Positions 31,564-39,312 of a stretch of 39,879 nt of DNA are shown piece by piece. Source of the stretch: Candidatus Endomicrobium macrotermitis. Its GTDB lineage: Bacteria > Elusimicrobiota > Endomicrobiia > Endomicrobiales > Endomicrobiaceae. The notes beneath the pieces were generated by a model. The model saw only the letters and a program-made list of their open reading frames with translations, was not told where the DNA came from and did no database searches. How positions within the stretch are numbered: position 1 is the first letter of the stretch; every line of letters starts with the position of its first letter. Both the position numbers and the translations under genes were made by a program. Location: positions 1-39,879 of the forward strand of contig JAISVT010000055.1 of NCBI GenBank assembly GCA_031271405.1. The letters are read 5' to 3'.

Positions 31564-31590
31564 TTGACATTGGCGGGTTTTTTTTATAAT
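31564..31590 (+). promoter_or_regulatory. tRNA-Thr promoter
   Basis: TTGACA at 31564-31569 and TATAAT at 31585-31590 with a 15-base spacer, 11 bases before the tRNA. The spacer is shorter than ideal. Confidence 0.65.
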
Positions 31591-31601
31591 ATAACCCTCA
31601 C

Positions 31602-31674
31602 GCCGACGTAGCTCAGCTGGTAGAGCAGCGGTTTTGTAAACCGCAGGTCGTAGGTTCAAACCCTATCGTCGGCT
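31602..31674 (+). tRNA. tRNA-Thr(UGU)
   Basis: A 73-base cloverleaf. Acceptor GCCGACG pairs with CGTCGGC, discriminator T. The anticodon stem GCGGT/ACCGC holds the loop TTTGTAA with anticodon TGT at 31635-31637. D-arm and T-arm (GTTCAAA loop) are regular. No CCA is encoded. Its 3' 45 bases are repeated twice downstream. Confidence 0.97.
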
Positions 31675-31882
31675 TCTTTCCCGACTTAAAAAAACATTAA
31701 GATTATCAAAAAGCTGCTCTACTTTATAGACAAGGTTTTGTAAACCGCAGGTCGTAGGTTCAAACCCTATCGTCGGCTTCTTTCCCGACTTAAAAAATCA
31801 TTAAGATTATCAAAAAGCTGATCTACTTTATAGACAAGGTTTTGTAAACCGCAGGTCGTAGGTTCAAACCCTATCGTCGGCT
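31630..31882 (+). repeat. 104-base tandem repeat containing the tRNA-Thr 3' half
   Basis: The 45-base segment from the anticodon stem to the discriminator (31630-31674) recurs without change at 31734-31778 and 31838-31882, exactly 104 bases apart. The connecting 59 bases are also repeated, with only two substitutions seen between the first and second spacer. The extra copies lack the 5' acceptor strand and D-arm, so they cannot fold as complete tRNAs. After the third copy the downstream sequence diverges. Confidence 0.95.
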
Positions 31883-31929
31883 TCTTTCCTTGCCTAAAAA
31901 ATCAGTTTCCTTTTGTTTTTAAAATCAGC

Positions 31930-32053
31930 CGTTAAAGCCGCCCTTAACGCGAGTCTATGAGCGGTCGATTTTTGAAATTGTTTTCAAAAATTGATGGCTA
32001 ATGCGTTCTGCGGCAGTTTTTTGCATACTTTTTGAACGTCTGCAAAAAGTATG
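31930..32053. other. Hairpin cluster upstream of the kinase operon
   Basis: Three stems lie in tandem: CGTTAA/TTAACG (31930-31949), ATTTTTGAAA/TTTCAAAAAT (31968-31991) and CATACTTTTT/AAAAAGTATG (32024-32053). The last competes with an alternative TTTTTGCA/TGCAAAAA pairing (32018-32048). A G-rich run follows. No gene is seen between the tRNA repeats and 32147. Confidence 0.5.
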
Positions 32054-32087
32054 GCGGGGGTTGGGGGCGCAGCGCTCCCCAAAACGG

Positions 32088-32116
32088 TTGAGTTTATAGT
32101 CATTTTTTGGTATCAT
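32088..32116 (+). promoter_or_regulatory. Promoter of the kinase/regulator operon
   Basis: TTGAGT at 32088-32093, a 17-base spacer and an extended TGG-TATCAT ending at 32116. GAGGGT precedes the ATG at 32147 by six bases. Confidence 0.65.
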
Positions 32117-32146
32117 CTACGGACAATAATTTTTGAGGGTTCCGCA

Positions 32147-33712
32147 ATGCGCATGAGTTTAAAAGTAAAACTGATAACCATAGTCATAGCCATAGTCGTT
32201 TCTACGGCTTTAACTCTTACCGTATTTTTCATATACACCCAAAAAGACATACTTAAAAAAAATCTTGAAAAAAGAACCGAAGACATTGCCAAAAGAATAG
32301 CCAATAACAACGAATTTTATATGTCGAACGAGCAAAAAGATGACTTGGATGTCGCGGCAAAGAACACATTGCTTGAAGAAGACGTCATTTACGCGGTGAT
32401 TTACGACAGAAATGCGGTTCAGCTTGCCGAGGCTCACATTACCAATGCCGAAATCAAAGATTACCTGATTGACAATAAGCCCGATATTACCGATCCGGTT
32501 TTTTGGAAAAAAGAGCCTAGAAGCAGCTTTTTTAAATTGAGGAACGCCGGCGATATGTTCGAAGTGTTTGTTCCGATGATCTCTTACGACCGCTCTCCCG
32601 AAATAGCCGGAGCTTCTCTTGCGAACGACAGTCTGGGCAGCGATGACAGGGGCGATATAATCGGAATAGTGCGCGTAGGCGTTACAATGGACAAGCTTAA
32701 CAAGCAGGTTGAAAGCGTGTCGAAAAATGTGGTTTTGCTTACCGTAATAGTCGTGCTGGGAAGTTTGATAATTTCTTTTTTCTTCATAAGGGTGATCATG
32801 AACCCCATAAGGGAGCTTGTAGTTGGAACAAAAAAGCTTTCGTCAGGCGATTTGTCTTACAGGGTCCCGCTTATTTCAAACGACGAATTAAGCGATTTGG
32901 CGAGTTCTTTCAACATGATGGCCCAGGATATAAAAGGCTATGTCGATGAACTTAACAGGGAAAAACAGGACCTGATGCGTTTAAAGGTTGTTCTCGAACA
33001 GCGAAGCGGGGAATTGGAAGAAACTCTCGAAAAAATGCAGAGTATTCAGGAAGAACTGGTAAGATCGGAAAAATTCGCGACTATAGGCCGTCTTGCCTCT
33101 TCGGTCGCGCACGAACTCAGAAATCCTATGGCAAGTTTGAAAAACATATCTTATTATCTTTCCAAAACCGGAAATTTCCAGGATGAAAAAGCAAAAAAAA
33201 TGCTCGATATGCTTTCTTCGGACGTTTCCAGAGCCAATAAAATAATTACGGATCTTCTTGATTTTTCCAGAGCCAAAAAACTCAATAAAATAAACATAAT
33301 GGCCGACGATTTCATAGACAAGGCCGTTTCAAATGTCACAATCCCGCCCAATATTAAAATCGAAAAGCAGGTAGGCCGATTCAGCATATTTATGGATCCC
33401 GATAAAATGACGCAGGTGCTGATCAATATAATTTCGAACGCCAGAGACGCCATGTCCGGCGGCGGTTCCATAAAAATATCCGCCGAACGCCGCAGAAGTT
33501 CCGTGGAAATAAAAGTAGCCGATGACGGCGCGGGTATGGACAAAAAGACTTTAGATCATATTTTCGACCCTCTGTTCACCACGAAATTAAAAGGCATAGG
33601 GTTGGGTTTGTCGATAGTAAAAGAAATAGTAGAAGCGCATTTCGGAACGATTACCGCGCAAAGCGAGCAAGGAAAAGGAACCGAATTTACGATAACGCTT
33701 CCCCCGGAGTGA
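32147..33712 (+). CDS. Membrane sensor histidine kinase with HAMP domain
   Basis: A 521-residue kinase. The first membrane segment covers about residues 8-30, a periplasmic sensor about 31-200, and the second membrane segment about 205-228. HAMP follows (MNPIRELVVGTKKLSSGDLSYRV split here as IRELVVGTKKLSSGDLSYRV), then a coiled coil and the HisKA box SSVAHELRNPMASLKN with phospho-acceptor His322. The ATPase domain has the N box NIISNARDAM, G1 DDGAGMD, the F-type segment IFDPLFTTK and a full G2 GIGLGLS. The ATG at 32147 follows GAGGGT; an in-frame ATG at 32051 upstream would include the promoter and is rejected. The stimulus is unknown. It is first in an operon with the triple-receiver regulator, a second kinase and smpB. 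Confidence 0.93.
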   Translation: MRMSLKVKLITIVIAIVVSTALTLTVFFIYTQKDILKKNLEKRTEDIAKRIANNNEFYMSNEQKDDLDVAAKNTLLEEDVIYAVIYDRNAVQLAEAHITNAEIKDYLIDNKPDITDPVFWKKEPRSSFFKLRNAGDMFEVFVPMISYDRSPEIAGASLANDSLGSDDRGDIIGIVRVGVTMDKLNKQVESVSKNVVLLTVIVVLGSLIISFFFIRVIMNPIRELVVGTKKLSSGDLSYRVPLISNDELSDLASSFNMMAQDIKGYVDELNREKQDLMRLKVVLEQRSGELEETLEKMQSIQEELVRSEKFATIGRLASSVAHELRNPMASLKNISYYLSKTGNFQDEKAKKMLDMLSSDVSRANKIITDLLDFSRAKKLNKINIMADDFIDKAVSNVTIPPNIKIEKQVGRFSIFMDPDKMTQVLINIISNARDAMSGGGSIKISAERRRSSVEIKVADDGAGMDKKTLDHIFDPLFTTKLKGIGLGLSIVKEIVEAHFGTITAQSEQGKGTEFTITLPPE

Positions 33713-36090: not shown

Positions 36091-36122
36091 CAGAGTGAAG
36101 GGTCGAGAGTGAAAAGTGAAGA
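36091..36122. repeat. AGTGAA-type repeat after smpB
   Basis: CAGAGTGAAGGGTCG followed by AGAGTGAAAAGTGAAGA (36106-36122). The 17-base segment is identical to 25157-25173 at the metH stop. Confidence 0.65.
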
Positions 36123-36153
36123 CGGCGGATTTTGCGGTCATAGGAAAAAATAT

Positions 36154-39100
36154 ATGAAAATCAGAGCCATAAAATTATTTGTTTGCCCGCTTTTTTTTGT
36201 TTTTGCCGCGTCGGCGTATTGCGGGGCTATAGATTTTATAAACCAAAATGTTGTAAATTCCAGCTGGCAGTATGTAAGTTCCGCAAGTTCAGGGGTGTTT
36301 TACGGCGGATATACGGTTTATATTCCGGCCGAAAGAACCGGGTTGTCTGGAAACGTTATTCTCGCTTCAAACGACGGTTCGACGCGCATTTTAAACTCGA
36401 GCGGAACTCACAGATTTTTATCTTTTAGCGCCGCAAATTCCTCGCTTGCCGCAAGCAACATAACTTTTTACGGCGGAAGGTATAACGGGATGAACACGGC
36501 GGGCGGCGGAGCCGTGTATTCCGGAGCTTCGGGTTTGACGATAAGCGGCAGCAGCGTAATTTTTAACCAAAACCGGTCCGAAACGTCATCAGGCGGCGCA
36601 ATATATCTTGCCGCGGGAACGCTTACTCTGGGCGGTTCGGTGACTTTCAACAACAATACGGCGCAAACGGGTTACGGCGGAGCCGCTTACAGCGGAGGAA
36701 ACATAATTTCTCTTGCGGGAAGCAGGCTTGAAATAAATACAAGCACGTCATCTTACGGCGGCGGCGCTTTTTATGCCGCAAGCGGATATATAGAAATAAG
36801 GGGCGGCGCGGTCATAAACGGCAACAGGACGATTTCCGATCAGGTTGACATAAACGGCGGCGCCTTTTTTGCGTCAAGTTATATATTGTTCGGTTCGGCA
36901 GCGGAAACCATAAGCATCACTTCCAATCAAACCCAGCGTTTCGGAGGAGCCCTTTATTCCGGAAGCTATGTCACTTTTAACGGCGGCGCAAAAATAGATT
37001 CCAACAAAGCCACTACCGGCACAAGCACCTCTACCGCGCGCGGCGGCGGCGCCATATATGCCGTAGGCTCCGTCACATTTGCCTCTTCTACCGCTGCGAT
37101 CGAGCTGACAAACAATACCGCTACCGGAAACGGCGGCGCCATATATTCGAATGCATCCGTAATTTTTTCGGGTTCCTCTTTAATAGACAGAAATTCGACC
37201 GATACGAGCGGGCCGGCAAGCGACGGCGGCGCAATTTGGGCTGACAGCGGCATTAATTTCACAAACGTTTCTTCAACCGCTACAATTACTTCAAATACGG
37301 CTAAAGCCGGAAACGGCGGCGCTTTATATTCGAATACCGGGATAATTTTCAGCGGTTACGTAAATGCGACCGGAAACACCGCCGAAAAAGGTTACGGCGG
37401 ATTTTCCGTTTCAAGTTCGATCGCGGTGCGTGACGGCGGAGAATTTGTATTCAATACCGCCGCCTCAAGCGGCGGCGCAATTTTTATACAAAACGGAAAC
37501 GGCGTTTGGACTTCTTCGATTTCCGCGCGGCCAAAAGACGTTGTTTTCAGAGACAATACCGCGGGCGGAAAAAGAAACGACATACATATGGCCGGAAACG
37601 GCAGGCTTAATTTTTATGCGGATTCCGGAAGAAACATAACCCTTGACGGCGGAATAACAAGCGGCGGTACGGGAAACCTTGTCGTAAAAGAAGGGAGGGG
37701 AAATCTTGTTCTCAACGGCGATTTTTATATGCAGGATTTTAACGTAAACGCGGGCGCCGTTATGCTGGGAAACACCGCGGTTTTCGAAACGGGGAACGCC
37801 GTTTTCGCTTCATCGACGGTTTTTGATTTGAGAAATAACAACAATACCGACATTGTAAGAATATCTTCAAATATAACTTCGTCGGCTCTTATCTATTACG
37901 ATTTCGATTCCGACTCGAACGCTTCGGATTTGATTGTCGCAAATTCCGCAAATATGGCGGGCACCACGATAAAAGTCGGAGTCGCGGGCATAGATTCTTC
38001 GACAAGGACTTATAACGTTATTAAAACTACCGCGGACAGTTCCGGAAGTATTAACATAGATAAAACAAACTCGCAGGGAAACGATATGTCGAGAGTCAGC
38101 GCGGATTTTGTCTATTACAGCGGGAATTCTTCCGGCACTTCGCTTGCCGCCTGGGACAGAGCGGATTTAAACGTTCATATAAATCAGCTCAACGTGATGA
38201 AAGAGCTGACCGGAAACCAGCTTAAAGTGGCTTTGGCTTTGGACAGGGATTACGGAACCGCAACGGACGATTTGTTTAACATTATAGATACCATAGACGA
38301 TTTGCCTTCGGAGCCTGAAAAAAAGTCGGCTTTAAACGATATTTCGGGGCATATCTATGCCAATGCCGTTACGCTGTCCGCTCTGAACGCTTCAAAAAAC
38401 AATATACTTTCCAGGCTTAAAAAGAGTTACTTTATAGCCGATGACAGCGTGCTTAAACGAAATGTCTGGATTCAGGGTTACGGCGCTTTGAACTCATACA
38501 GAGGCGACGACGATTCCCCGGGAGATTTCAGCGCTTCAAACAGCGGCTTTCTTGCGGGTTTCGACACTTTGAAAGACGAAAAACACATATTCGGAATAAG
38601 CGCGGGATATGTCGGCACCGACGCAGAACAAAACGGCGATAAAATAAGCATAGACGGATACAGCATAGGCGGGTACGGTTCGTATTTTTTTGAAAATAAT
38701 TTCGAAGCGAAATTTATGGTTATGGGCGGCAGGCAGAATTACGCGTCTTCAAGGGATATAAGGTATCTCAACAGAACCACAAAAGCTTCTTTTGTCGGAT
38801 ACAGCTTGAACCTTTCGGCGGAAGCCGGGTACGATTATTACTACAAAAACAACGTTTATTTCAGGCCTTTTGCGGGCCTAGACTATTCGTTTGTCGCGAC
38901 AAACGAATTCAGCGAAACCGGAGTGAATTTTTCCACAAGCGCGGCGGATTTGACGATTTATTCGGGTTCGTACAACAGGGTAAACACGGCTTTGGGCATT
39001 CAGATCAATAACGGCACGCAGATGAGGCTGAAATGGTACGGCGAAATTAAAGCGGACCTGCTTTTGCTCGGCAGGGCAGGCGAATTTGCAGGGAAATTCA

Positions 39101-39312
39101 AAAACTCCGAACACGAACTTGAAATAAAAGGCATCACCAACGACGTGTTTAATTTCGGAATCGGAGCGGGCGCTTTGTACGACATATCTTCAAGTTTCAG
39201 CGCTTACGCGAATATCAGCTGTTCGTTTTCCGGCACTCAGACCGGTTTTTACGGCAATTTGGGGTTAAACTATAAATTTTCAACCGAAATTATCGGCTTT
39301 TACGACAGATAA
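36154..39312 (+). CDS. Pmp-like autotransporter with C-terminal barrel
   Basis: A 1052-residue secreted protein. The signal peptide covers about residues 1-23 (KLFVCPLFFVFAASAYC). The passenger (about 25-500) has around twelve GGA(I/L/F)Y-type repeats (GGGAVYSGASG, GGAIYLAAG, GGALYSGS, GGAIYSNAS) spaced 25-40 residues, often with NNT or N(K/Q)xxT between, the pattern of chlamydial Pmp beta-helix repeats. A linker with the VWIQGYGALNSY entry starts the barrel at about residue 770. The last strand YGNLGLNYKF is followed by an unusual ten-residue extension TEIIGFYDR. It is likely a surface adhesin or variable antigen. AGGAAA precedes the ATG at 36154; the frame upstream of it is repeat DNA. Confidence 0.92.
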   Translation: MKIRAIKLFVCPLFFVFAASAYCGAIDFINQNVVNSSWQYVSSASSGVFYGGYTVYIPAERTGLSGNVILASNDGSTRILNSSGTHRFLSFSAANSSLAASNITFYGGRYNGMNTAGGGAVYSGASGLTISGSSVIFNQNRSETSSGGAIYLAAGTLTLGGSVTFNNNTAQTGYGGAAYSGGNIISLAGSRLEINTSTSSYGGGAFYAASGYIEIRGGAVINGNRTISDQVDINGGAFFASSYILFGSAAETISITSNQTQRFGGALYSGSYVTFNGGAKIDSNKATTGTSTSTARGGGAIYAVGSVTFASSTAAIELTNNTATGNGGAIYSNASVIFSGSSLIDRNSTDTSGPASDGGAIWADSGINFTNVSSTATITSNTAKAGNGGALYSNTGIIFSGYVNATGNTAEKGYGGFSVSSSIAVRDGGEFVFNTAASSGGAIFIQNGNGVWTSSISARPKDVVFRDNTAGGKRNDIHMAGNGRLNFYADSGRNITLDGGITSGGTGNLVVKEGRGNLVLNGDFYMQDFNVNAGAVMLGNTAVFETGNAVFASSTVFDLRNNNNTDIVRISSNITSSALIYYDFDSDSNASDLIVANSANMAGTTIKVGVAGIDSSTRTYNVIKTTADSSGSINIDKTNSQGNDMSRVSADFVYYSGNSSGTSLAAWDRADLNVHINQLNVMKELTGNQLKVALALDRDYGTATDDLFNIIDTIDDLPSEPEKKSALNDISGHIYANAVTLSALNASKNNILSRLKKSYFIADDSVLKRNVWIQGYGALNSYRGDDDSPGDFSASNSGFLAGFDTLKDEKHIFGISAGYVGTDAEQNGDKISIDGYSIGGYGSYFFENNFEAKFMVMGGRQNYASSRDIRYLNRTTKASFVGYSLNLSAEAGYDYYYKNNVYFRPFAGLDYSFVATNEFSETGVNFSTSAADLTIYSGSYNRVNTALGIQINNGTQMRLKWYGEIKADLLLLGRAGEFAGKFKNSEHELEIKGITNDVFNFGIGAGALYDISSSFSAYANISCSFSGTQTGFYGNLGLNYKFSTEIIGFYDR

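Follow-up and report, generated by a model that had tools for sequence, protein, structure and literature searches.

A tandem array of tRNA-Thr 3′ halves in Endomicrobium as a candidate rtT-like trailer of proposed template-switch origin

Why should a single tRNA gene be followed, at a fixed spacing, by perfect copies of its own 3′ half? The question is raised by the window analyzed here, a stretch of 39,879 nucleotides from Candidatus Endomicrobium macrotermitis, which carries an intact tRNA-Thr(TGT) gene (the only one with a TGT anticodon detected in the genome, and without an encoded CCA). The last 45 nt of this gene (31630–31674; GGTTTTGTAAACC...CGTCGGC plus T) recur unchanged at 31734–31778 and at 31838–31882, with start-to-start distances of 104 and 104 bp. 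The locus comprises the following features:

31564–31592, plus strand: sigma-70-like promoter of the tRNA gene (TTGACA-17-TAATAT)
31602–31674, plus strand: intact tRNA-Thr(TGT), identified by ARAGORN and Rfam
31674–31733, plus strand: spacer 1, 60 nt, with 23 flank-like nt, then the inverted tRNA segment, then TTTATAGACAA
31703–31722, minus strand: inverted tRNA segment spanning anticodon loop to D-arm (16/20; GCTGCTCTAC 10/10)
31734–31778, plus strand: first 3′-half copy, anticodon arm to discriminator, identical to tRNA-Thr
31778–31837, plus strand: spacer 2, 58/60 identical to spacer 1, with its own inverted segment at 31807–31826
31838–31882, plus strand: second 3′-half copy, identical to tRNA-Thr
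31882–31904, plus strand: flank 3′ of the last half-copy, 19/23 identical to the spacer start
32088–32116, plus strand: promoter-like site of the downstream histidine kinase gene (TTGAGT-17-TATCAT), aligned in E. embiratermitis and bounding the array downstream

A first-pass annotation had described the exact repeats, their constant period and the repetition of the spacers, all of which were recovered as claimed. The genus of the window genome consists of four species, and one of these, Candidatus Endomicrobium embiratermitis, has three tRNA-Thr 3′ halves in exact 104-bp steps at the same syntenic place, between genes for an M23 peptidase and a histidine kinase in both species; array, copy number and period are thus the same in the two. 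Two exact tandem 44-mers, together with the same array in a second species, exclude a chance origin of the sequence pattern, and the array is not an assembly artefact. Arrays are known only from these two genomes of termite-gut species, both of which are draft assemblies. None was found in the other 75 Endomicrobiaceae genomes searched (two congeners and 73 further members of the family), each of which has at most one copy of the tRNA-Thr half, except for a second complete tRNA-Thr in genome G004, where two complete tRNA-Thr(TGT)-like genes occur (G004:C82:16-88 and G004:C104:2373-2446), one of them at the very end of its contig. A check of the tRNA neighborhoods in both array-bearing genomes (45 tRNA genes in the window genome and 31 distinct ones in E. 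embiratermitis) revealed no similar trailers behind the other tRNA genes examined.

The surroundings of the array are older than the array itself. The order of tRNA-Thr(TGT) followed by a HAMP/HisKA sensor kinase gene (31602–33712 in the window) is conserved across many Endomicrobiaceae genera, and since tRNA-Thr adjoins the same kinase without any array in many of them, the array was a later addition, made in a single lineage, to a locus that is old and stable. The gap between tRNA-Thr and the kinase is often only ∼30–70 bp in the family, and this conserved short gap suggests that the tRNA and the two-component system may be co-transcribed. A recent island insertion between tRNA-Thr and smpB, prompted by the adjacency of these two genes in genome G003, was considered and rejected, because tRNA-Thr beside the kinase is the family-wide state.

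Comparison of the two species also bears on the age of the array and on the forces acting on it. Over ten syntenic genes, they share 53% identity at fourfold-degenerate sites, and are therefore near neutral saturation. The tRNA portion had been reported as unchanged and the spacers as substituted; within the window this contrast does not hold up statistically (0/44 vs. 2/60, Fisher p = 0.51), whereas between species it is clear, with halves identical at 44/44 positions, spacers at ∼38/61 aligned positions and fourfold sites at 53%. Selection, recombination with the gene, or a combination of the two would explain why the half-copies are identical throughout in both species. Selection on the tRNA half and the production of tRNA-derived fragments, both suggested in the first-pass annotation, may be at work. 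Similarly, the earlier proposal of a recent duplication stands with respect to duplication but not with respect to a recent single event: the duplication predates the split of species that are ∼47% divergent at fourfold sites, and the copies were homogenized later. Spacer identity within species (58/60 in the window and 60/60 in E. embiratermitis) greatly exceeds that between species (38/61), which indicates concerted evolution of the spacers. Copying of the halves from their own gene is not continuous, given that the E. embiratermitis tRNA-Thr gene has a T at one T-loop position where both of its half-copies retain the ancestral C. Within the spacer, the first 32 columns match at 17/32 between species, compared with 53% at fourfold sites, and the 25-nt stretch preceding each half (AAAGCNGCTCTAC...ATAGACAA) is conserved at 20/25, a weak hint of constraint (p of about 0.04 over the spacer, and 0.005 for that fixed place).

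The composition of the spacer bears on how the array arose. The inverted segment is conserved as AAAGCNGCTCTAC in E. embiratermitis, with a complementarity of 10/11 at the same offset, and in comparison with shuffled sequences it is significant in both species (p = 0.0015 and 0.008). Among ∼105 tRNA trailers, the longest and the joint second-longest antisense matches are those of the two arrays. An inverted copy of nearby sequence is thus present between the direct copies, as duplication by template switching requires. The similarity between spacer and flank is found in the window species only (19/23; p = 0.62 in E. embiratermitis) and there it ends after ∼23 nt, and no source was identified for the 11 nt TTTATAGACAA of the spacer. 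Two template switches would be expected to give this layout (half and flank, inverted piece, half and flank). Simple tandem duplication would not, because the last half has no whole spacer behind it, and nor would integration, which should leave an attP arm unlike the host flank.

Judging from these patterns, the array is most likely a template-switch duplication whose uniformity has been maintained by recombination. During replication, the nascent strand would have switched template near the tRNA and copied the D-arm to anticodon loop in inverted orientation; a second switch back would then have recopied the 3′ half, giving half and flank, inverted segment, half and flank. Subsequent unequal crossing-over or conversion between the 44-bp halves could have altered the copy number and homogenized the array in 104-bp steps within each species. 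Combining this origin with a role as a trailer, we lean, by somewhat more than an even chance, toward an rtT-like trailer array that has been inherited vertically and lies behind the only tRNA-Thr(UGU) gene.

The trailer part of this reading is less certain than the origin. In addition to the promoter of the tRNA gene listed above, a stretch resembling TTGACTT...TATAAT is conserved upstream of tRNA-Thr in the three other members of the genus, and no terminator-like site was found on the plus strand between tRNA-Thr and the kinase. Neither the array nor its 60-nt spacers contain an ORF of at least 20 aa, and a protein-coding reading of the array was rejected on this basis. The array is likely transcribed; lacking an ORF and not preceded by any evident terminator, it would form a long 3′ trailer of the transcript, to be removed when the tRNA 3′ end is formed. 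The predicted transcript folds better than shuffled sequences (z = −4.6). In minimum free energy folding, which takes no account of the tRNA folding first as transcription proceeds, the predicted full-length transcript loses the D-stem of the cloverleaf in both species, an effect of the inverted segment in the spacer; controls with shuffled spacers fell as low as the real value in 0/200 and 1/200 cases. The trailer is thus predicted to compete for the tRNA D-arm in both species, a lead rather than a demonstration. By pairing with the D-arm, the inverted segment could allow the precursor to refold if maturation is slow.

Considering the array as a whole, the chance that it has a function may be put at roughly one in three. 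A still more specific proposal, which we regard as improbable, is that the trailer is a switch through which the sole tRNA-Thr(UGU) regulates itself, in which anti-D-arm segments and spare 3′ halves (the latter can pair with the 5′ half of the tRNA) would refold the unprocessed precursor and thereby couple the level of mature tRNA-Thr to the capacity for processing. If this were true, arrays of the rtT type that carry an inverted tRNA segment would constitute a recurrent class.

The most serious alternative is that the array is a purely neutral remnant of duplication, with an inert trailer and with halves that are identical only through recombination with the essential tRNA gene. We consider this a substantial possibility that falls somewhat short of even. 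The concerted evolution of the spacers within each species is in keeping with it, as is the neutral level of divergence across most of the spacer (17/32 in the first 32 columns, against 53% at fourfold sites). Recombination with the gene does not, however, account for the E. embiratermitis T-loop position, at which gene and halves differ, and direct-orientation conversion with the tRNA cannot maintain the inverted segment, which is nevertheless still complementary at 10/10 and 10/11 positions. The survival of the array with an unchanged unit length also counts against an inert remnant.

Integration and excision had been put forward in the first-pass annotation, with the halves either as recombination sites or as scars. 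In this scenario, two tandem insertions by a tyrosine integrase at an att core in the tRNA-Thr 3′ half would have lost their bodies, leaving the cores separated by attP arms. The copies do run from the anticodon stem-loop to the tRNA end, which is a usual att core, and tRNA fragments derived from integration are common in prokaryotes (PMC9897764). The window genome also has an integrase beside a tRNA-Val gene: on contig G000:C9 (L093, 2608–4745), the 3′ end of tRNA-Val(GAC) is adjoined by genes for an HTH regulator and a tyrosine integrase of 345 aa. This region is likely an integrated element; a search of the integrase contig for an attR copy of the tRNA-Val 3′ end found none. At the array itself, the evidence points the other way. 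As the earlier annotation had noted, no integrase is nearby: the tyrosine and serine recombinase matches of the window genome (PF00589 and PF00239) are all on other contigs, and no integrase or attP with a core equal to the tRNA half was found in the window genome, its relatives or viruses. The half occurs nowhere else in the window genome or in 76 relatives, apart from the two arrays and the extra full tRNA-Thr of G004. Searches of viral contigs (three exact patterns) and of phages and plasmids (blastn) returned only the phages' own ordinary tRNA-Thr genes. Between the copies there is neither an element nor remnants of one, only the 60-nt spacers; the array occupies one conserved place in two species, and both units would have to have shrunk to exactly 104 bp in each. 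The match between the host flank and the start of the window spacer is a further argument against attP arms. Taken together, these observations make an origin as integration scars unlikely; an involvement of integration restricted to the first event is possible.

A third alternative is a DNA or RNA element that governs read-through from tRNA-Thr into the sensor kinase gene. Its appeal lies in the ancient adjacency of the two genes, with their often short gaps, and in the position of the array between them, but a promoter-like site lies immediately upstream of the kinase and can be aligned between the two species, and the array is absent from most members of the family, and we regard such an element as very unlikely. 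Least credible of all are complete tRNA-Thr pseudogenes with decayed 5′ halves: although a tRNA covariance model aligns whole units at 20.5, 14.5, and 13.9 bits, full pseudo-tRNA units were rejected because these scores all lie below the 29-bit gathering score of RF00005 and are driven by the intact 3′ half, and in the sense direction the spacer resembles the tRNA 5′ half no better than shuffled sequences do (p of 0.10–0.29), whereas its antisense similarity exceeds theirs.

The system that the putative trailer array most closely resembles is the tandem repeats of the Escherichia coli tyrTV-rttR locus (RtT RNA, Rfam RF00391). In E. coli K-12 (NC_000913.3), the last 19 nt of the tyrV tRNA recur three times in exact 178-bp steps (+178, +356, and +534), and the spacer contains 22 nt that match the tRNA-Tyr T-arm region in inverted orientation (19/22, p = 0.0005). 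Behind tyrT, the repeat copy is at +175 rather than +178. The arrays of the window and of E. embiratermitis share this plan: units of exact period lie in tandem directly behind a tRNA gene, each terminates in a perfect repeat of the tRNA 3′ end, and an inverted tRNA segment lies inside the spacer. They differ in the tRNA involved, in having an unrelated spacer sequence and no encoded CCA, in the extent of the repeated tRNA sequence (45 vs. 19 nt) and of the unit (104 vs. 178 bp), and in lacking a small protein such as Tpr. No match to the RF00391 covariance model above 45 bits was found in the window, compared with 133–138 bits for the E. coli control locus. With the same plan, but with no shared spacer sequence and no RF00391 match, the Endomicrobium array belongs to the rtT kind and not to the rtT sequence family.

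Other known arrangements are more distant. The 3′ETS-leuZ RNA is a trailer of a tRNA precursor without repeats, and the Endomicrobium array would likewise be released as a precursor trailer. Like att scars (PMC9897764), the array repeats the tRNA 3′ half behind an intact gene; unlike them, it has no element or integrase, and it has a fixed 104-bp unit in two species, homogenized spacers and an inverted tRNA segment. This serves as a caution: a 3′ tRNA fragment located behind a tRNA need not be a scar of integration.

The rtT repeats of E. coli have long seemed a one-off curiosity, and a literature search, incomplete in its coverage, located no paper on arrays of the Endomicrobium type. An unrelated array of the same plan in the Elusimicrobiota, again with an inverted tRNA segment in its spacer, suggests a common route from tRNA genes to tandem trailers, and makes it possible to test whether trailers of this type have any effect.

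Two other features of the window were noted. Between the array and the kinase (32029–32078) lies a long, REP-like hairpin (CATACTTTTTG...CAAAAAGTATG, then GGGGGCGCAGCGCTCCCC), which is single in the window. Further downstream, at 36109–39312, this insect-gut bacterium encodes a 1067-aa autotransporter with Chlamydia PMP-type repeats.
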